Shown piece after piece: positions 42,684 through 54,470 of a stretch of 64,000 nt of DNA (position 1 is its first letter; each line of letters opens with the position of its first letter). Source of the DNA: Periplaneta americana. Its lineage: Eukaryota > Arthropoda > Insecta > Blattodea > Blattidae. The notes under the pieces are model-generated. The model saw only the letters and a list, made by a program, of their open reading frames with translations, was not told where the DNA came from and made no database searches. Location of the stretch: assembly GCF_040183065.1 (NCBI RefSeq), contig NC_091120.1:73014708-73078707 (forward strand), in the 5' to 3' direction. Made by a program: the position numbers and the translations under genes.

Positions 42684-42942
42684 GATGTGTCATTCAGAGT
42701 TGCCAGATGTGGCTACTTGTCGCCATTCTGGCGCCTTTTATGTTCCTTGTGGCGACGAAAATTTCCACTTGGTGACCTGGCTACTTTTCTGGCATCTTTA
42801 ATGTTAAATTATAAAAATAATCTAACTAAAACATTGTTTTTTTTTTCACAAGACTGTGATCCATTGTACGTAATGTTCTTCAGAACGTAAATATTCGTCA
42901 GTTATTGTAGTTCCGTTCATTTTCAAAAGAAGGCAGAGTATT

Positions 42943-43986
42943 TGTGGGTGGAATCGTTGTTGTGGCCCCACGCTGGACGCCATTTGAGGGTGGTTGTCGT
43001 TATTGAGTTCCCACGTTGGACGCCATTTGAGGGTGAGTGGTTATTGTGACCACACGTTGGGCGCCATTTGAGGGTGGGTGCGTCTCGATGTTGCGTGAGA
43101 TTCACTCAGGGTAGCCGAGGTACGGTTGTGGTGTAGGTTGATGTCGGGAATAATACCAAGCCGGCTACTTAAATAAAAGGCAGCGTAAACTTCAAAACTA
43201 TAAGTTTATTGTCGTATCCACTTGGTAAACCCTAGAATATGTATTTCCGGCTGACATATAATTCAATCGTTGGTCGCACTTCTGTATCGACTCTATGGCG
43301 GTTCTGAATAAGCTCTATCCGATACTACAAATTCAATACTCTGTCCAGTACACTATGACACGAAGCGAAATAGTAGTCCTGTCGACACCAAACGAAGTAG
43401 TTATTCTGCCCTGTATATAGGGCCGCCGACACGATGTAAAGTAGTTTTGATGATCTCCGCTCCGAAGCGGAATAGTAGTCGTCATCTCCGCTCCCCGTCA
43501 CCCTTATTTATAAAAACCTATCCTACGCTAAAACTAACTATCCTATTGGTTAAAAACTACGTCACTACCTGGCCTAAAATCTATTCCCTATTGGTCCAAA
43601 GTGACCTCATAAGCTGGACCAAGATCTCTTCTTATTGGGCGCGAAATATGTCATCTCTAAATTTAAACTTTGGATTTCCCATAACATCTAATTAGTTTGT
43701 ATATCTCACAAGAATACCCGTTCTTTGGAAAACCCAAGCTTGGCAGTATCTTTCCCACGGGTCTAGTCCGACTCCGGCTTTAGAATTTTATGCTTCATCG
43801 AGTCTATACGAAACCCCGCTCAAGGTGGCCCTAAATCTGTCCGATGCTGACAAGTGACGAAACACCTGTGTGAGGAAGCTAATTCTAACGAAGTCGCCAG
43901 AACATCCCCGCGAATACATGTAATAAAAATATGAAGATATCACTTCGCTAATAAATCGGTCTCTCCCTCTCCTAATTACTGCTTCA
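42943..43986 (-). repeat. 3' LTR
   Basis: 1044 bp, TGAAGCAG...ACCCACA on the minus strand. It carries the same TATA-like and AATAAA signals as the 5' LTR and the same three-unit ~42-bp array at its U5 end (about 42970-43075). No convincing polypurine tract precedes it: the adjacent minus-strand sequence is GTAGATGGGCATT. Confidence 0.95.
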
Positions 43987-44369: not shown

Positions 44370-47300
44370 CTACTCTTTCTCATTCCTGCCTCCTTGCCTC
44401 TCCTGTTTGAAAGGCCGCAAGAGTTGCTTGTGGTACCTTCCAACAGGTTTACTTTTTCCCCTTTCTACCAATTCGAAAGTATGGTCTCCGTATTTACTCT
44501 TAATTTCGTAGGGCCCCTTGTACAGTAGCTCCATGCGTGAGTAACGTCCTCTAAGGGCGGAAGATAACTTCACGTCCCTTAGCAATACCAAATCGCCGGG
44601 TGTGGGCTCCCATTTGTGGCGATATCTTTTAACTTTACCGAGTCTATACTCAGCCTTTTTCCTGACTCGGTCGAAAGCTAGTTTACACAGTAGTTCCGCA
44701 CTAGGAGGCTCACCCTCCTGTATTGCCTGCGGCAAACTCTTTATCATGGGATCGGGATCGATCCCTAACATAAGTTTGATCGGAGCTATTCCGGTCGATG
44801 GATTGATAGAGTGGTTCATGACTCTCTCAATCACCTCACATTGCCTAAACCAGTCCTTATGGTTTCGGTGACACAGAATACGGAGGTACAATGATATATC
44901 CCTAAGCGCTCTTTCGCAGGGATTACCGCTGGGAAAGTATGCGGAGCAATTGTATAGCTTCACGCCCGCATCTTCCAGCCTTTTGCAAAACACTTTCGAT
45001 TTATGTACCGACACATTGTCACTGAGCACCGCTGTTACCGGGCCGTAAGTCGGTATGTAGTCTCTAACCAGCTTATCAGCACACAACTTGCTAGAGATAT
45101 TTCTTAAAGGGTAAATCTTTACAAATGTTGTGAACACATCGTACGTAACAAATATGTACCTGTGTCCGAAGGACGATGTGGGCATTGGACCGTGTTCGTC
45201 CACTGCTACAAGTTCATTCTTTTTACCCCTGATAATGACCTGTGGTACATTGTCATACCTTACATTTAGAGGTTTCGCCCTCTGGCAGACCTCGCAACGA
45301 GATATTACCCTTCTAACCTTCTTTGACAGTTGCTTAATATAAAATGATTCTGACATAGTTAAAATGATCCTATCACTCCCAGAGTGACACATAGATAGGT
45401 GAAAGTTGTTTATAAGTTCATTCTCCATACTCGCAGGTATGTATATCTTCCACTTCTGGATATCCCTACCATGCAATTTATACAAGATACCAGAGCGCAA
45501 TCCATACACTTCGTCTTTCATCTGTGAGATTTCTCTAGCTTTGTCCATTAAGGCCCTTGTCGTGGAATCCTCCTGCTGCAAATCTGCAATTTTCCGAAAT
45601 TTTCCCGTCAGAGCTCCATTCCTCGTGGAATCAATTTTCATCACCGCAATTTCGTACGCGGGGGCGGTGATAGTTTCCGGTAGCCCCGATTTGGAATTCA
45701 AACGAGAGAGACAATCACCAAAGATATTGTCTGCCCCCGGAATATGTCTGATCGTCACATCATGAGCCAAAATCTCGTGCACATATCTAGATATTCTAGA
45801 GTTCGTCAATTTGCATCTACTCAGAAACGCTAGGCTTACATGGTCAGTAAATATGATTATCTGCCTATTAAAGATATACTGACGGAACTTCTGTAGTGCG
45901 AAGTACACAGCAGAAATCTCTAGTTCCGTAATTGATGCGTTGCTTTCGGTACGCGACAGTCCCCTAGAAGCTGTGGCAATCACATGTCGCTTATTATCTT
46001 CATCTGTCTGACATAGAATTGCTCCATATCCATATGAAGACGCATCCGTATAAATCTGAAAAGGTAGGCTGTCGTTAGGCCTTTCCAACAGAATTGAGTC
46101 GGCAAAAAGCAGTTTCGTTCGATCGAATGCTTCCTGCTCTGCCGACCCCCACCTGAAGGGTGTATCCTTCTTCAACAATGCTCTGAGTGGGGCTACATGC
46201 TTAGCATAATTGACGAGAAACCGATTCTGGTATTGTAGGATACCTAGATATCTACGAACCTGTTTCCGGTTCCGCGGCGGCGGGATCCTCGAAATGCTCT
46301 GAATTCTCTCTTGGTCCGGTCTAATTCCGTCAGACGAAATTACGTAACCCAGGAAAACTGTCTCAACTTTAAAAAATGCTGTTTTCCCCAGCTTGACTGT
46401 CATACCAGCCTCTCTCAATTTAGTAAGTACAAAATCAATATCCCTAATATGCCTATCAACATTATTGCCATATATAAGAAAATCGTCAATGTACTGTGCC
46501 AGAAAACCTTTCGTCGAATCACCAAAAATTATGTCAAGTGCCCTTAGTAGCGCAGATCCAGAACTCGCGATGCCGAATGGGCATCGGGTATACTGATAAA
46601 CTTTCCCGTTATGTAGGAACGCTGTGAATTTTCTCGAGTCCTCGTCCAGCGGAATCTGCCAATACGAACTGGTCAAGTCTAAACTAGTGAATATAGAACA
46701 GTCACTGATACGGCCTAACAAAGTGTCCACTGACTCCGTCCTGAAATTATCTTTAACTGAAAACGAGTTAACGTGTCGGGCATCGATCGTTACTCTTAAG
46801 CTTCCATTGGGCTTCCTAACCCAGCACAATGCATTTACATAAGGCGAGTCTGATACTTCTATAACTCCGTCTTTTAACATATCATTTATGACTTCGTCTG
46901 CCTGATCCCTTAAAGATAGGGGGATGGGTCTACATTTATGCCGAAATTCCTCCATTCCTACCACCTTAATTTTGTGTGTATACATTCTACACAGACCCGG
47001 CGCGTCTGAAAAGACATTTAAATGGTTACCTACAACATCCATTAAGCGTTTTCTTTCACTCTCACTCAGGCCGTGTGCCTGGTTAACTTTATCTCTCACT
47101 ATTTCGAAAGTATCTGTCTTCCTATTGTTAGACGCGACTACCTGCCTAAGATCGCCAAGCGAAATCTCATTACAATATCTGGCCCTACCGCTAATGAGAT
47201 TACGTCCTATTTGTCTCGCCTGGACTAATTCGCCGATACACAACTCGCATTCTCCGCAGTCTACTTGACACACTCCCCTAGTTACCTCGTTACCTTCCCA

Positions 47301-47987
47301 CGGATTAACCTCTATAATTACATTCTTACAAATTTTGAGGTGCTCTACAAAAAATAACTCTTCCTGTAATCCTATCTCTTCCGCGGTTCTTTCATCTAAC
47401 TCCGATCTAGCGCTATTGCTACTGAATGGGACATGGCCTACACTGTCGTTACCTGCCGTAACCCCTAGTCTGTTTTCCCTGAAATCTAATAGCGCGTGCC
47501 ATTCATAGAAGCTTTCTACTCCAATAATGATGTCGGTAGTCAACCTTTGTATCACAAGAAAAATAGCATTTAATTTCACGTCTCCGCACTCTAACTCGAA
47601 CCATACTTGATATTTTACCTTTTCCTTCTTCTTGCTTAGGGCGCCCGCACAGTACAGTGAACATATGGGTAACGTTTGCAGTTTTCTTCCTGAATCCCTA
47701 ACCTTTTGAAAAAATTCCAAGCTGCATACATTATTTGTGGAGCCCGAGTCCAACAACACACAACACTTAATCCCAAATATTTTAGCATCTATATAAGGCA
47801 ATACATAAGTCCCATTATTTTCTAACTCTGGGTTAGTAATCTCGCTCTGTCTCTTCACGCTTACCGCGTTGGTGGATTCTTTTGACAGTGGCTTACTGCA
47901 CTTAGCTACAGAAATCTCCGAACCCTTGAGACTTCTGTCTAGCAGCTTCCCGATTGCGATGCAGTCGGTTCCACTGCTACCTCGTCT
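44370..47987 (-). CDS. pol: Pol polyprotein: protease, RT, RNase H, integrase
   Basis: The frame opens after a TAG at 47988-47990 and overlaps the end of Gag by 49 nt in the -1 frame, so it is probably made as a Gag-Pol fusion. Counting from the GTG at 47858: protease active site LLDSGS at 36-40 (DSG rather than DTG); RT FTSLDLTSSYWQI with Asp394 and YIDDF at 456-460; RNase H Asp605 (YTDASS), Glu645/647 and Asp672; integrase zinc finger H820/H825/C855/C858; integrase core D887, D947, E982, with 34 residues between the last two (usually 35); GPY-type motif YKGPYEI near 1113. No stop interrupts the 1162 codons. The intact reading frame and near-identical LTRs suggest recent activity. Confidence 0.95.
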   Translation of the reverse strand, partial: RRGSSGTDCIAIGKLLDRSLKGSEISVAKCSKPLSKESTNAVSVKRQSEITNPELENNGTYVLPYIDAKIFGIKCCVLLDSGSTNNVCSLEFFQKVRDSGRKLQTLPICSLYCAGALSKKKEKVKYQVWFELECGDVKLNAIFLVIQRLTTDIIIGVESFYEWHALLDFRENRLGVTAGNDSVGHVPFSSNSARSELDERTAEEIGLQEELFFVEHLKICKNVIIEVNPWEGNEVTRGVCQVDCGECELCIGELVQARQIGRNLISGRARYCNEISLGDLRQVVASNNRKTDTFEIVRDKVNQAHGLSESERKRLMDVVGNHLNVFSDAPGLCRMYTHKIKVVGMEEFRHKCRPIPLSLRDQADEVINDMLKDGVIEVSDSPYVNALCWVRKPNGSLRVTIDARHVNSFSVKDNFRTESVDTLLGRISDCSIFTSLDLTSSYWQIPLDEDSRKFTAFLHNGKVYQYTRCPFGIASSGSALLRALDIIFGDSTKGFLAQYIDDFLIYGNNVDRHIRDIDFVLTKLREAGMTVKLGKTAFFKVETVFLGYVISSDGIRPDQERIQSISRIPPPRNRKQVRRYLGILQYQNRFLVNYAKHVAPLRALLKKDTPFRWGSAEQEAFDRTKLLFADSILLERPNDSLPFQIYTDASSYGYGAILCQTDEDNKRHVIATASRGLSRTESNASITELEISAVYFALQKFRQYIFNRQIIIFTDHVSLAFLSRCKLTNSRISRYVHEILAHDVTIRHIPGADNIFGDCLSRLNSKSGLPETITAPAYEIAVMKIDSTRNGALTGKFRKIADLQQEDSTTRALMDKAREISQMKDEVYGLRSGILYKLHGRDIQKWKIYIPASMENELINNFHLSMCHSGSDRIILTMSESFYIKQLSKKVRRVISRCEVCQRAKPLNVRYDNVPQVIIRGKKNELVAVDEHGPMPTSSFGHRYIFVTYDVFTTFVKIYPLRNISSKLCADKLVRDYIPTYGPVTAVLSDNVSVHKSKVFCKRLEDAGVKLYNCSAYFPSGNPCERALRDISLYLRILCHRNHKDWFRQCEVIERVMNHSINPSTGIAPIKLMLGIDPDPMIKSLPQAIQEGEPPSAELLCKLAFDRVRKKAEYRLGKVKRYRHKWEPTPGDLVLLRDVKLSSALRGRYSRMELLYKGPYEIKSKYGDHTFELVERGKSKPVGRYHKQLLRPFKQERQGGRNEKE

Positions 47988-49699
47988 CTATTTCTACAAT
48001 TTATAGGCTCCCGGCCCATATTCATTCTGACCGGACTTTGCTGACGTCCGTTCATGTCTCTATTCCTGCTTTGTCCCACGTTACACTGTGTAGGTGGCCT
48101 ATTGCACCCTTGTGAGGCCATTTCTTGTAGGACGCCTCGCCTATCTCTCTCCTGCTCCTGTCTCCTCCAATCACCTCGATTTTGCGGTCCCCTGCTAAAA
48201 TTAGGCTGCCAGAATCCCTGTCTGTAATTTCTGTTCCTAAGCCAGTGTGGTTGGGTTCTAAGCCTATTATTTCCATTTTCTTGTCTTCCCGTGTACCATC
48301 GTATGTGGTTAACCCTACGCACGGGACCAACACCTCCTCGATCGTTCCTCATCCTGTTATGACTACTCTGGTTATTCCTACTATTATTGTAAGGACCCCC
48401 AAAGGACGGGTCAATCCTTCTCTCCCTGTTGGGACTTTTCCCTCCGTTATGGCCATTATAGTATCGACTATATGCATTGTTGGGGCTCCTATCACAACCC
48501 CAGTTACTCTGATTTTGGGCTCCTGTCCTTGGGGATGAAAAGGCCGTACTTGCCCCCTTCCCCGCTTTCTGGTCGGTGGGGCTTGAACCCTTTCCTTTGC
48601 CATGTTCATAATCTGCCTGTCCACTACATTCATAGTGCGTGGCGTCCGAACCATCCAGCGCCGTCAATAAATCTATTGTTTCCCCGAAGTCTCGGGGCCC
48701 TGCTACAATCAGATTATATCTTATGTTCTCGGGATACTGCGAAATCACAGTTTGGATCAGCTCTGAATCCGGTATTGGCGGATTGAGGCTTTTCCCTTTC
48801 TTAACCAGTTCAAGAAAATAATCTATCATAGAGACGCCTCTTCCCGCGTCAAACCTGCTCTGATTAATTTCCTTCCTAATTCTTTGTTGTTGTCTTTGTC
48901 CCCAGTATCTCTCCGAAAATTTTTCTCTGAATTCCTCATAAGTGACATTATCCCCTAGGGCCACTAACGCCCAGTTGAGTGGTCGGCTCTTTAGGCTCTT
49001 TCGTACGACAGTCATTTTTAAGTCATCCGGCACCCCTCTTATTCTGAAGTACGTTTCCAGCTCACTTATGTAATTATGTGGGTTTGAAAATTCAACCTCA
49101 TCAAAAATAGGGTAACCAATCTCATTCATAATGTGGGTGGGGTACTGAGGACGGCCTAAATATGCCTTGTCGTTTACATTTATCAACTCACTACGCACAT
49201 CATCCCGTGAGGTCTGACATTCCTCACCAACACTATTGTTAACATGTCTTACATTTATGTTGCTACCTGATGCCGGGCTCTCACTCGTGCCCTCTTGTCT
49301 AGAAACTGCACGGTCCGAGCTGCTATGTCCGCTTAAATTTGCGGGACTACCCCCATTTAGTACGTCGTTTATTGAGTTTAGTTTACTTCTTAATTCTTCC
49401 AAACATTCGTTATCCGCCCTTTCTTTATTCTTTATGGCTCGCTTGAGACCGTCCACTTCCTGATCCATCTCACCTATTTTCTCTTCCACCGAATTCTGAA
49501 TTTCTCGAACCTTCTCCACTATCGTTTCCTCAACAGCTGATTTTAGGTCGCTATTCTCTCTAGTAGCGCTATCTCTAACTCTAACTTCTAAATCCTTCAT
49601 ACTTTCTGACATCCTATCCATAGCTATCTTCAATTGGTTCTCCATTCCGATCCCATTCTCGGCTAATTTCCCCTCTAGCTTCTCTATTTTGTCCTCCAT
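47939..49699 (-). CDS. gag: Gag, main part (capsid domain and basic C-terminus)
   Basis: 586 codons from an ATG at 49699; this ATG may be internal, since the upstream Gag segment (50278-49748) is in the same frame and only one TAG separates them. Residues 1-110 are a long coiled coil. Residues about 195-350 (YPIFDEVEFSNPHNYISELE through DLLTALDG) are the Retrotrans_gag capsid-type domain: an F-G/NP--Y---LE-YF opening, W243, TYEEFREKF. From about 400 the chain is rich in Arg, Asn and Gly. No CCHC zinc knuckle is present; the Arg-rich tail probably binds RNA instead. The C-terminus overlaps Pol. Confidence 0.9.
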   Translation of the reverse strand: MEDKIEKLEGKLAENGIGMENQLKIAMDRMSESMKDLEVRVRDSATRENSDLKSAVEETIVEKVREIQNSVEEKIGEMDQEVDGLKRAIKNKERADNECLEELRSKLNSINDVLNGGSPANLSGHSSSDRAVSRQEGTSESPASGSNINVRHVNNSVGEECQTSRDDVRSELINVNDKAYLGRPQYPTHIMNEIGYPIFDEVEFSNPHNYISELETYFRIRGVPDDLKMTVVRKSLKSRPLNWALVALGDNVTYEEFREKFSERYWGQRQQQRIRKEINQSRFDAGRGVSMIDYFLELVKKGKSLNPPIPDSELIQTVISQYPENIRYNLIVAGPRDFGETIDLLTALDGSDATHYECSGQADYEHGKGKGSSPTDQKAGKGASTAFSSPRTGAQNQSNWGCDRSPNNAYSRYYNGHNGGKSPNRERRIDPSFGGPYNNSRNNQSSHNRMRNDRGGVGPVRRVNHIRWYTGRQENGNNRLRTQPHWLRNRNYRQGFWQPNFSRGPQNRGDWRRQEQERDRRGVLQEMASQGCNRPPTQCNVGQSRNRDMNGRQQSPVRMNMGREPINCRNRDEVAVEPTASQSGSC

Positions 49700-49747
49700 C
49701 TTGTTTCCTCTCTCCGCTAATTTTGCAATATGATCTCTAATCTCTCT

Positions 49748-50278
49748 CTAACTTTCCCCCAATCTATTTTCCATTTGTTTTATTTGTTCTCTACTTTCCC
49801 TTGAGTTATTCTCTAATTTAGTTTCCATTTGTTTTATTTGTTCTTTACTTTCCCTCAGAATCTGCTCTCTACTTTCCCTTGAGTTATTCTCTAATTTAGT
49901 TTCCATTTGTTTTATTTGTTCTTTACTTTCCCTCAGAATCTGCTCTCTACTTTCCCTTGAGTTATTCTCTAATTTAGTTTCCATTTGTTTCATCTGTTCT
50001 CTACTTTCCCTTGAATTGTTGTCTAATTTATTTTCCATGAATTGTCTCATCTGCTCCCATAACTGTTCTAGCGTCATTTCCCCTTTGCCACTGTCTCTAC
50101 TCTGTTGCTTTTCCACCGTTCGCTCTCCCTCTATTTCTTGTCCTGCGTTATTCTCGACCTCCTCCCTAATTTCCATAATTTCCTCGTCCTTCCTTTGCTC
50201 CATGGTTCCCTTGTTTCTATTTCCTCGTCTTTCTCGTATTTTCCTAACTACCTTACTCCTATGGCTACGTAGTATCAT
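49748..50278 (-). CDS. gag: Gag, N-terminal coiled-coil segment before in-frame TAG
   Basis: 176 codons from an ATG at 50278, ending in TAG at 49748-49750. The same frame stays open beyond it through 16 codons to the ATG at 49699, and heptad-like charged sequence continues on both sides. I therefore read the TAG as interrupting one Gag. Residues 97-166 consist of a 26-residue repeat (KQMETKLENNSRESREQI then LRESKEQI), two full and one partial copy. The first 60 residues are basic then acidic. Whether the stop is suppressed, used, or simply a mutation in this copy cannot be told from one copy. Confidence 0.8.
   Translation of the reverse strand: MILRSHRSKVVRKIRERRGNRNKGTMEQRKDEEIMEIREEVENNAGQEIEGERTVEKQQSRDSGKGEMTLEQLWEQMRQFMENKLDNNSRESREQMKQMETKLENNSRESREQILRESKEQIKQMETKLENNSRESREQILRESKEQIKQMETKLENNSRESREQIKQMENRLGES
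49781..49990 (-). repeat. 78-nt tandem repeat inside gag
   Basis: Two full 78-nt units (49990-49835) and a 54-nt partial unit encode the 26-residue coiled-coil repeat. Units differ only by single bases. Confidence 0.9.
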
Positions 50279-50754
50279 CTATATGCTACTCTGTCATCTA
50301 TCCGACGCTCGCTTTCCCAATAATAATCTAACTAGGCCTGTATTTGCACTCGACTCACTTCCAACAAATTACGCAATACACTTATTTCACTCTTTCCCCC
50401 AAAATATCACACACAAAAAAAAATACATATATATATATACACCCAAAATATCACACCAGAAATTGAAACATATACACTTTATAATTATTCCCCCAAAATA
50501 TCATATACATATATACACATTTATACGTCTTCTATTCATACTTGCCACAGCCTCTCCGAGTCGCCTTCTCTGGTGGTCCCCGTGTTGTCTTCTCTAGTGT
50601 TGTCGTGATGTCGCGATGGCTTGGTTCTGTTCCCGCCTTCCAGCGTCGTTCCTCGGCTATGCAGGGCTGAACTGCTCCGTCCGGTCCTCCGCGTTGTTTG
50701 GTGCTGTGTTCGCACCCGGGGCCGGTCACTGGAACAGCTGTCTTCCTTCGAGCC
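50279..50754 (-). other. Retrotransposon 5' leader
   Basis: Non-coding, between the PBS and the first gag ATG. It contains three spaced copies of (plus strand) CCCAAAATATCAYA near 50400, 50443 and 50492. Confidence 0.7.
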
Positions 50755-50925
50755 CCAAGTTGGGAAGCGCCATTTGTGGGTGGAATCGTTGTTGTGGCCC
50801 CACGCTGGACGCCATTTGAGGGTGGTTGTCGTTATTGAGTTCCCACGTTGGACGCCATTTGAGGGTGAGTGGTTATTGTGACCACACGTTGGGCGCCATT
50901 TGAGGGTGGGTGCGTCTCGATGTTG
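50733..50925 (-). repeat. ~42-bp array of LTR-end/PBS-like units across the U5 boundary
   Basis: On the plus strand, GACGCCATTT/GGCGCCATTT followed by GAGGGTGG recurs with the preceding CCACGTTGG at about 50808, 50851 and 50891. The true LTR/PBS junction (AAGCGCCATTTGTGGGTGG, 50765-50783) is the fourth member of the series at the same spacing. Confidence 0.85.
50755..50774 (-). promoter_or_regulatory. Putative primer-binding site
   Basis: Minus strand immediately after the LTR: a two-base AA spacer, then TGGCGCTTCCCAACTTGG. TGG is the complement of a tRNA CCA end. The related TGGCGCCCAACGTG in the adjacent U5 array looks more canonical. Primer tRNA not assigned. Confidence 0.65.
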
Positions 50926-51036
50926 CGTGAGATTCACTCAGGGTAGCCGAGGTACGGTTGTGGTGTAGGTTGATGTCGGGAATAATACCAAGCCGGCTAC
51001 TTAAATAAAAGGCAGCGTAAACTTCAAAACTATAAG

Positions 51037-51042
51037 TTTATT
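51037..51042 (-). promoter_or_regulatory. Polyadenylation signal of the LTR
   Basis: AATAAA on the minus strand about 295 bp downstream of the TATA-like box, which would place the R/U5 border shortly after it. Confidence 0.45.
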
Positions 51043-51336
51043 GTCGTATCCACTTGGTAAACCCTAGAATATGTATTTCCGGCTGACATATAATTCAATC
51101 GTTGGTCGCACTTCTGTATCGACTCTATGGCGGTTCTGAATAAGCTCTATCCGATACTACAAATTCAATACTCTGTCCAGTACACTATGACACGAAGCGA
51201 AATAGTAGTCCTGTCGACACCAAACGAAGTAGTTATTCTGCCCTGTATGTAGGGCCGCCGACACGATGTAAAGTAGTTTTGATGATCTCCGCTCCGAAGC
51301 GGAATAGTAGTCGTCATCTCCGCTCCCCGTCACCCT

Positions 51337-51344
51337 TATTTATA
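51337..51344 (-). promoter_or_regulatory. TATA-like box of the 5' LTR
   Basis: TATAAATA on the minus strand, the best TATA match in U3; repeated in the 3' LTR at 43505-43512. Confidence 0.5.
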
Positions 51345-52311
51345 AAAACCTATCCTACGCTAAAACTAACTATCCTATTGGTTAAAAACTACGTCACTAC
51401 CTGGCCTAAAATCTATTCCCTATTGGTCCAAAGTGACCTCATAAGCTGGACCAAGATCTCTTCTTATTGGGCGCGAAATATGTCATCTCTAAATTTAAAC
51501 TTTGGATTTCCCATAACATCTAATTAGTTTGTATATCTCACAAGAATACCCGTTCTTTGGAAAACCCAAGCTTGGCAGTATCTTTCCCACGGGTCTAGTC
51601 CGACTCCGGCTTTAGAATTTTATGCTTCATCGAGTCTATACGAAACCCCGCTCAAGGTGGCCCTAAATCTGTCCGATGCTGACAAGTGACGAAACACCTG
51701 TGTGAGGAAGCTAATTCTAACGAAGTCGCCAGAACATCCCCGCGAATACATGTAATAAAAATATGGAGATATCACTTCGCTAATAAATCGGTCTCTCCCT
51801 CTCCTAATTACTGCTTCAACGTTCAAAGTTACGTAGAAAACTTCCCTAGGCTCTGGCACGGGGATCTACAATATGTATGATCTGTGATTTACAATGATGT
51901 TTTAATAACATAATTAAGTGGAATTAATTCCTTATAAATATATTACATTAATGGATTAAATTAATAGGTTTTATTATCAAATAAACTTTTAATTTAAAAT
52001 AGGCCTACATGAAATTAATTTCTATGCTTTATGTCTAAACTTCGATAATTAATAGAAACGATGTTGAGCAGTAAGTCGTTAATTAATAATAGCGGGAATT
52101 CAGCGATTTATCGGGTCTATTAGCATTTAGCAGATTCTTTCACTTGGTACAAGGAGTGGGAGAACCGACCCTGGCTAAAGATAATAATTGTAGTTTAATT
52201 AAAATTAATATTCAAGCCTCAAAATTCGGTACCGGTATTTAGTCATAATTCAAAGTCACTACCATTTACAAAATGGACCATTAGACCACAGATTCACCTA
52301 ATGCAGAAAAT

Positions 52312-52935: not shown

Positions 52936-53069
52936 CCACCGGCGTCAGTCGGCTGAAGTGCTCGTCTGTCGATCCGGAGTTGCGACATGGGTTTGATACC
53001 CGCTTGGACTGATTGCATGGTTGGCGCTTTTCCGAGGTTTTCCTCAACTGTGAGGCGAATGTTAGGTTA
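52936..53069 (+). mobile_element. SINE family B, 3'-truncated
   Basis: CACCGGCGTCAGTCGGCTGA, then CGATCCGGAGTTGCGACATG, B box GGGTTTGATACCC, and CCGAGGTTTTCCTCAACTGT. It passes directly into the satellite array. Confidence 0.75.
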
Positions 53070-54470
53070 CCTCTAATTACTGTACAAAGTTTGATCAAAA
53101 TCTGTTAGATAGAAGAAAACTTATTAAATTTGTCTAAATTCATCCCTATAATGGGATAGTTTCCTTTACACAAATATAATTAGAGCGTGTACACAAAACA
53201 AGTATTACCCTTAACTATTGTACAGTAGTGGCAAAAAAACCGGACCGACGGAATAATCAAAGTTCCCGAAATGAGCCACTGCGCATGCCATGCCCGCATT
53301 CACTATATAGCGAATAATCTATTGAAATTGTTGTAGTTTCGACTGCTGACCTAGCCCATTTCGAAAGCCATTAGAAAATAAGCTGGTAAAATTCATGTTC
53401 TGGGAATAATAAGTTAATTAAGTAGTAGTAGCAGTAATTAAGTAGGAAAACAGTAACCAGCTGCGTGGTTGTTGTTCACCTGCACAGGTGGTTTCGGGTC
53501 CAAGGAATATGCACCGACGCTCTGGAGTGAACAAGGCTCTGAAATCAGCTACAAGAGTCGGTCCGGGTTTTTTTTTTGCCACTACTGTACAATTTTGATG
53601 AAAATCTGTTTCGTATGAGAAAAGCTACTAATTTTACCTAAATTCAGACCTACATTGGGACAGTTTCGTTTACACAAATGTAATGAGAGTTTGTGTACAA
53701 ACTACTACCTATAATTACTGTACAAAGTTTAATGCAAATCTATTAGATAGGAGAAAAGTTATTAATTTCCTCTAAATATACCCCTTATAAGGGGTAACCA
53801 GAGTTTCTATACAAAACAAATTATACTACCTGTAACTACTGTACAAAGTTTCATGAAAATCTGTTAAATAGGAGAAAAATTATTAATAGTTATTAATTTT
53901 TCTCTAAATTAGCCCCTATAAGGGATAGTTTCCCTTATACAAACGTAGTCGGAGTTTGTATACAAAACAAATACAACCTATAACCACTATACAACGTTTC
54001 ATGCAAATCTGTTAGATAGGAGAAAAGTTATTATTTTTTCTCTAAATACACCCCCTGCAAGGGGTAGTTCCCATTGTACCAACGTAATCAGAAACTATTG
54101 CACGAAGTTTTATGAAAATCTATTAAATAGAAGAAGATTTATTAATTTTTCACTGAATACACCCTTGTAAGGGATAGTTCCTCTTGTACCAACGTAATCA
54201 GAGTTTGTAAGGGGTAGTTTCCCTTATAAAAACGTTACCAGAGTTTGTATACAAAACAAATATACTACCTGTAATTACTGTACAAAGTTACATGAAAATC
54301 TGTTAAATAGGAGAAAAGTTACTAATTTTCTCTATGCACCCCCTATAGCGGGTAGCTTCGTTCATACAAACGTAATCAGAGTTTGTATAGAAAAAAAAAT
54401 GTACTACTTGTAACTACTCTACAACGTTAGATGATAATCTGTTAAATAGGAGGAAAAGTTATTACGTCCA
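53070..54470. repeat. ~145-bp tandem repeat array
   Basis: Units contain ACTGTACAAAGTTTCATG, AAATCTGTTAAATAGGAGAA, AAGTTATTAATTTTTCTCTA, CACCCCCTATAAGGGG, AGTTTCCCTTATACAAACGT, AATCAGAGTTTGTATACAAA. I count about eight or nine units, some truncated or internally deleted. They are the reverse complement of the units at 10.1 and 12.6-13.4 kb. Confidence 0.85.
53223..53587. mobile_element. Tc1/mariner-type MITE inside the satellite array
   Basis: CAGTAGTGGCAAAAAAACCG at the left and CAGTAGTGGCAAAAAAAAAA (reverse complement of right), both reaching CCGGACCGAC, form 28-30-bp TIRs. TA on both flanks. 365 bp, non-coding; interrupts one satellite unit. Confidence 0.85.

Follow-up and report, generated by a model that had tools for sequence, protein, structure and literature searches.

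In the textbook scheme of retroviral replication, one primer site fixes one LTR end. Voronin and Pathak reportedly observed in 2004 that HIV-based vectors with two primer-binding sites (PBS) undergo frequent dual initiation. In the standard scheme, as outlined in the available part of PMC13191261, minus-strand DNA begins at the primer and thereby sets the LTR end. The same excerpt describes that HIV-1 plus-strand synthesis stops before m1A58 of the primer tRNA, after 18 nt of it, and that in lentiviruses and spumaviruses the PBS is directly followed by tRNA complement. A few natural departures resemble parts of what we describe below. The MAL-type insertion of HIV-1 is a duplication of the PBS (PMC3185550, partial text), as is found in our array, and certain HIV-1 proviruses have asymmetric LTRs, i.e., their own 5' and 3' LTR differ, as in our elements (PMC9278108, partial text). 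The authors of the latter study propose template switching of strong-stop DNA between two RNA copies (PMC9278108, same excerpt). The Osvaldo lineage, like our element, has a tRNA-Lys primer site and LTRs of ~1-2 kb, and Culex cqgypsy_1 has an odd PBS region in which a duplicated LTR end of 26 nt flanks tRNA-derived sequence (PMC3286476). Here, we analyzed an element that is very probably a young Ty3/gypsy retrotransposon of the cockroach Periplaneta americana whose RNA would carry four tandem tRNA-Lys PBSs, alternative priming at these sites setting the LTR end.

The window, i.e., the whole stretch of 64,000 nt under analysis (assembly GCF_040183065.1, contig NC_091120.1, positions 73,014,708 to 73,078,707), contains a Ty3/gypsy element on its minus strand, running from 51818 to 42943 (Table 1). 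The element has the traits of the Metaviridae: pol is ordered RT, RNase H, integrase, there are two LTRs, and a PBS lies behind the 5' LTR. The target duplication, of 4-6 bp in this group, is 4 bp long in 34 of 40 copies of the family, the window copy being without one. The integrase core match (23.1 bits) is under the Pfam cut-off of 32.6, and the gag region has a weak match to Ty3_capsid (19.6 bits, cut-off 29.1). No env frame was found in the 383 nt between pol (44370) and the 3' LTR (43986), where the only minus-strand frame of at least 100 aa has 106 aa, overlaps the LTR, and lacks a Pfam match. The LTR has a single TATAAA and a single AATAAA motif, which places the array in U5.

Several other aspects of the window are worth recording. 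In this copy, the in-frame stop cuts the gag frame after 176 aa; the part that follows it is 97% identical to a 771-aa P. americana relative annotated as 'myosin-4-like', and gag also contains a 78-bp tandem repeat (49788-50011; 2.9 copies, 97%) encoding a coiled-coil-like repeat, which may explain the myosin-like annotation. A sister family in P. americana has a Gag (P0052) with 50% identity. The element has no target duplication (ACGT and AATA at flanks 51819 and 42942) despite an LTR identity of 99.8%, perhaps because of recombination between two copies. Upstream of the element in its reading direction, positions 53068-54250 hold diverged repeats with a spacing that is partly ~111-134 nt. 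A LINE frame is also present, and its named hits, among the 120 matches listed, belong to P. americana.

Table 1. Coordinates of the element and of its primer-site array in the window, in the reading direction of the element.
Feature	Position	Strand	Description
5' LTR	50775..51818	-	TGAAGC...CCACCCACA, 1044 nt, array at its 3' end
TATAAA and AATAAA motifs	5' LTR	-	TATAAA at 476, AATAAA at 778, counted along the 1048-nt alignable stretch 50772-51819
Internal PBS 1	50881..50898	-	16/18 identical to the tRNA-Lys complement; LTR end in 0/34 elements
Tail 1 (LTR end before PBS 2)	50860..50880	-	Conserved: 7 distinct sequences in 39 copies
Internal PBS 2	50840..50857	-	15/18 identical; LTR end of element L067
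Tail 2 (LTR end before PBS 3)	50817..50839	-	29 distinct sequences in 39 copies
Internal PBS 3	50797..50814	-	16/18 in the window copy; LTR end in 12/34 elements
Tail 3 (LTR end before junction PBS)	50775..50796	-	33 distinct sequences in 39 copies
Junction PBS 4	50747..50772	-	23-nt tRNA-Lys complement including TCGAA, with a 3-nt insertion; LTR end in 21/34 elements
gag region	47939..50278	-	In-frame stop at 49748-49750 in the window copy
pol frame	44370..47987	-	RT, RNase H, integrase zinc-binding domain, integrase core
3' LTR	42943..43986	-	2 differences from the 5' LTR in 1048 aligned nt; array identical
Three units of the 3' LTR	42943..43066	-	Flanking DNA directly behind, without a PBS

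The original prediction had placed three units of ~42 bp at the U5 end of both LTRs, each made of an LTR end, AA, and a TGGCG motif, and had taken the real LTR/PBS junction for a fourth unit at the same spacing. The three units are indeed there, on the minus strand and 41-43 nt long, and the order ACCCWCA, AA, TGGCG occurs four times, ACCCWCA and AA preceding every TGG. The TGG starts at 50898, 50857, 50814, and, at the junction, 50772, giving spacings of 41, 43, and 42 nt. The junction thus keeps the spacing (42 nt) but is not a plain copy of the other units, since it has an insertion of 3 nt. All 154 nt of the array recur in the 3' LTR (42940-43093) at 100% identity. A chance origin is very unlikely given two controls: Tandem Repeats Finder scored the array at 184, against a best score of 42 among 200 dinucleotide shuffles of the region, and a 16-nt pattern of the tRNA-Lys 3' end, searched with up to 3 mismatches, matched six times in the window, all in the two arrays, where 0.11 matches were expected. 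The motif made of LTR end and PBS is invariant in 22 of 25 columns across the three internal units of the window. When the short spacers of the units were compared by themselves, shuffling showed no significant likeness (p 0.09-0.73), i.e., the repeat signal rests on the motif and on the alignment of whole units. The secondary structure of the array gave no signal (z 0.07).

Matching the motifs to tRNA 3' ends had been proposed as a check, and tRNA-Lys(CUU) fits. We used as reference the 3' half of the human tRNA (PMC12140204, partial text), which may differ from that of the cockroach; the PBS of Lys1,2 is given as TGGCGCCCAACGTGGGGC in the available part of PMC1084362. Each internal unit holds an 18-nt tRNA-Lys(CUU)-like site, and pairing with this tRNA, counting G-U, extends over 17, 16, and 18 of 18 positions in internal PBS 1, 2, and 3. 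The junction PBS of the window copy matches 23 nt of tRNA-Lys, with the 3-nt insertion and one substitution. The further claim, that the canonical PBS is better matched by an internal motif than by the junction, is correct for the first 18 nt, where the internal sites are identical at 16, 15, and 16 positions and the junction, without gaps, at 8. Over 24 nt of tRNA, the duplex of the junction (-40.0 kcal/mol) and the best internal one (-41.2 kcal/mol) are about equally strong.

To study the family, we searched the host assembly once with a 193-nt query containing the array and scored the top 40 of 1109 first-look candidates, all of which span the query. As the sample consists of the best 40 matches to a query that includes the array, copies with other unit numbers or ends may be missed. 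The suggestion that units be counted in each genomic copy gave a uniform answer: there are three internal units in 40 of the 40 copies (in L030 by alignment, owing to one extra base), with no change of unit number in the sample that would indicate ongoing amplification. LTR bodies are nearly identical within elements (median 100%, lowest 99.5%), as expected from young elements. Between the copies L002-L030, the LTR part matching window positions 51020-51620 contains indels, often of ~100 nt. Two family members on contig C11, L018 and L019, stand in tandem 7.9 kb apart and have a common LTR.

To locate the LTR ends, we compared the 5' junction of each element with the end of its own 3' LTR, reading 39 separate stretches around the expected 3' LTR, one per element except for that of the window. 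A perfect 4-bp target duplication was found exactly at a CA end in 34 of the 40 elements. The other six were left out of the counts: L008 and L030 (3' LTR not found), L018 and L019 (two elements with a common LTR), and L001 (the window copy) and L061 (no target duplication). As a control, duplications were compared across different elements and matched in 12 of 1406 pairs. Among the 34 elements, the 3' LTR ends at the fourth CA, just before the junction PBS, in 21, at the third in 12, at the second in one, and at the first in none. The window copy itself ends at the junction site. In the 13 elements with shorter 3' LTRs, the remaining unit or units are still present on the 5' side, between the end point and the leader, and the 12 elements ending at the third CA have 12 different 4-bp duplications. 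Hence, the family has several LTR ends, each with its target duplication.

Because the start of the minus strand sets the LTR end, the simplest reading of these 13 elements is that they were primed at the internal sites. In other words, judging from these integrated copies, the array most likely offers alternative primer sites and LTR termini at its internal units, as the original prediction had suggested. Each of the four PBSs stands right behind a complete LTR end (ACCCWCA and AA), and reverse transcription would start mostly at the outermost site, PBS 4, often at PBS 3, and rarely at PBS 2. As the start of the minus strand defines the LTR end, the choice of site would set the number of units in the 3' LTR. 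This would come at no cost on the 5' side of the RNA, where the sites downstream of the one used would remain as leader, so that the array would be passed on.

The same ends might be produced later in the cycle, if the junction PBS primed all cDNA and 42 or 84 nt were then removed by integrase or a nuclease, an internal ACCCWCA with its AA becoming the LTR end. Such terminal trimming accounts for ends that fall on those CAs, as the internal units have an intact LTR-end motif and AA that integrase could accept. Yet it does not predict the traces that site use seems to have left, although these come from few elements. PBS 2 is the exact complement of tRNA-Lys only in L067, the sole element ending there (1/1 where used, 0/33 where unused; Fisher p 0.029). 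Tail 2 differs between the element's own LTRs in 3 of the 12 elements ending at it (L002, L060, and L063) and in 0 of the 21 ending one unit later (p 0.040). The first result comes from one element and the second from three. We thus regard trimming as unlikely and alternative priming as the probable source of the different ends.

If priming takes place at the internal sites, a used site may be overwritten by the 18 nt copied from the tRNA. PBS 3 matches the tRNA complement exactly over its 18 nt in 22 of 39 copies, and does so in 10 of the 12 elements ending at it against 11 of the 22 others, a difference that is not significant (p 0.075); in L060 the PBS 3 used as end carries a 3-nt insertion. 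At PBS 4, the insertion is kept in 36 of the 40 copies, and a plain tRNA complement occurs in 2 of the 21 elements ending there. This counts against simple overwriting, because repeated copying of the tRNA should have removed the insertion. A hypothetical host RNA with three additional bases would be an exact partner of this PBS. In L017-L019 and L060, unit 3 has the 3-nt insertion that elsewhere marks the junction, which indicates that units also exchange sequence with the junction. In L067, the tail that closes unit 3 is that of unit 1, which looks like the outward move of a unit made at PBS 2.

Behind PBS 3, positions 19 and 20 have diversities of 0.54 and 0.66 and positions 21-23 are invariant (35 copies, the four with an insertion left out), whereas in units 1 and 2 (39 copies) position 19 is invariant and position 20 has diversities of 0.14 and 0.30. 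By analogy with the HIV-1 stop, this variable dinucleotide may be a trace of the stop at m1A58. Two observations count against it: units 2 and 3 also vary at position 24 (0.40 and 0.50), and copies with a non-exact PBS 3 (13) have about as mixed a dinucleotide as those with an exact one (22).

Differences between an element's own LTRs are concentrated in the array, with 38 in 3,693 positions compared with 26 in 32,739 (0.08%) in the LTR body (p 6e-22), i.e., 13-fold higher odds. Within the array, they gather in the 24 nt that precede the end used (31/814, 3.8%), the rest having 7 in 2,879 (0.24%). Four of these seven fall in PBS 3, which has a one-base difference between own LTRs in 4 of the 21 junction-ending elements (L003, L005, L012, and L022). 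The last 24 nt differ in 11 of the 34 elements, often as blocks, and in L006 the last tail of the 3' LTR is the element's own tail 2. Across elements (30 copies), diversity rises from tail 0 (0.018) to tail 1 (0.031), tail 2 (0.086), and tail 3 (0.144), in the same order as the numbers of LTR ends at PBS 1-4 (0, 1, 12, and 21), before dropping in the junction PBS (0.020) and the adjoining leader (0.019). Diversity is also high outside the array, at 51020-51319 in the LTR body (0.078, with length variation) and at 50340-50539 (0.052). These patterns suggest that the ~24 nt beside the used site are a hotspot of change within the same cycle. The likeliest cause, in our view, is that the template is switched early in synthesis, either from unit to unit or from one packaged RNA to the other; alternatively, initiation may be error-prone.

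One might also regard the array as a plain minisatellite that includes the LTR/PBS junction by chance and has no role in priming. Its array-like structure and the high diversity of tails 2 and 3 would fit, as would the likeness of these two tails within elements (identical in 3 of 39, p 0.002). This reading is largely contradicted by the 13 of 34 elements that have target duplications and end at internal units; it also fits poorly with a motif of LTR end and PBS that is kept while the tails vary, and with three units in every sampled copy. We consider it very improbable. Slightly less probable still is that the shorter 3' LTRs stem from assembly error or deletion after integration, to both of which repeats are prone, the ends having been read from the assembly. 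The 12 loci ending at the third CA have 12 different duplications directly behind it; a deletion confined to the LTR would keep the outermost end, and one that extended to the flank would take the duplication with it.

Of the earlier interpretation, the functional half is thus supported, while the historical half, that a PBS was copied into the LTR during reverse transcription and then amplified, is something we can only infer. The internal units consist of 18 nt of tRNA complement, the length copied up to m1A58, followed by a U5-like tail, while in the PBS on the leader side TCGAA comes next; amplification finds no counterpart in the unit number, which changes in 0 of the 40 copies. A first unit might have arisen when plus-strand strong-stop DNA, ending in the 18 tRNA-copied nt, was joined to a minus strand extended beyond the PBS into U5, after which a start at the outer PBS would put the new unit in both LTRs. 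We give this origin about even chances.

Taken together, we lean, with some reserve, towards a family with a heritable and working array of primer sites, in which every cycle would choose its start, and with it the LTR terminus, afresh while keeping the array. A used site could be marked by an exact 18-nt copy of the tRNA and a variable dinucleotide at the m1A58 stop, the first ~24 nt would be a hotspot, probably by switching between units and co-packaged RNAs, and the copies would record their start. The family may have many copies (1109 first-look candidates, 40 scored), each of which seems to record its start site. The choice of primer site, the overwriting of a PBS by the tRNA, and errors of strand transfer could then be read from integrated copies without an assay. 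For annotation, this means that the 5' and 3' LTR of an element may be of unequal length, by one or more whole units, and that ages estimated from LTR differences would come out too high with the array included.

Searches for relatives gave no match in viral contigs (with the DNA pattern, with pol, and with a two-row pol alignment), in prokaryote genomes or, with LTR DNA, in phages, in results from which the element's own or very near genome records may have been omitted. In a literature coverage that excludes most subscription journals, we recognized no description of a natural array of LTR end and PBS with alternative LTR ends, nor a precedent in the available parts of PMC7472051, PMC3601003, PMC2829016, and PMC5445492. 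The element shares with the Osvaldo lineage a PBS complementary to tRNA-Lys, with the human tRNA-Lys(CUU) as reference, and the LTR length (1044 nt in the window copy; among the 34 elements, the 15 with a listed length have 996 to 1155 nt); no protein named Osvaldo is among the 50 matches listed. Culex cqgypsy_1 differs in having a single insert of 149 bp, in which two tRNAs stand head to head, instead of a tandem of LTR end and 18-nt PBS, and the accessible text reports no alternative LTR ends for it (PMC3286476). The MAL-type insertion of HIV-1 lies 23 nt downstream of the PBS, outside the LTR, and is a single partial copy for which the excerpt describes no LTR end (PMC3185550). In the asymmetric HIV-1 proviruses the 3' LTR has a deletion, according to the part of the article at hand (PMC9278108), whereas the cockroach LTRs differ by entire units at their U5 end, a target duplication being present. 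The junction PBS continues with TCGAA, like the complement behind the PBS of lentiviruses and spumaviruses (PMC13191261, partial text); the internal units, in contrast, stop at 18 nt and have other sequence behind, with a variable dinucleotide behind PBS 3. Known components are the PBS duplication of HIV-1 MAL, the two-PBS vectors, and the odd PBS regions of Osvaldo elements. The two-PBS vectors are a laboratory construct, whereas the cockroach array is natural, inherited, and accompanied by the integrated products of different starts.
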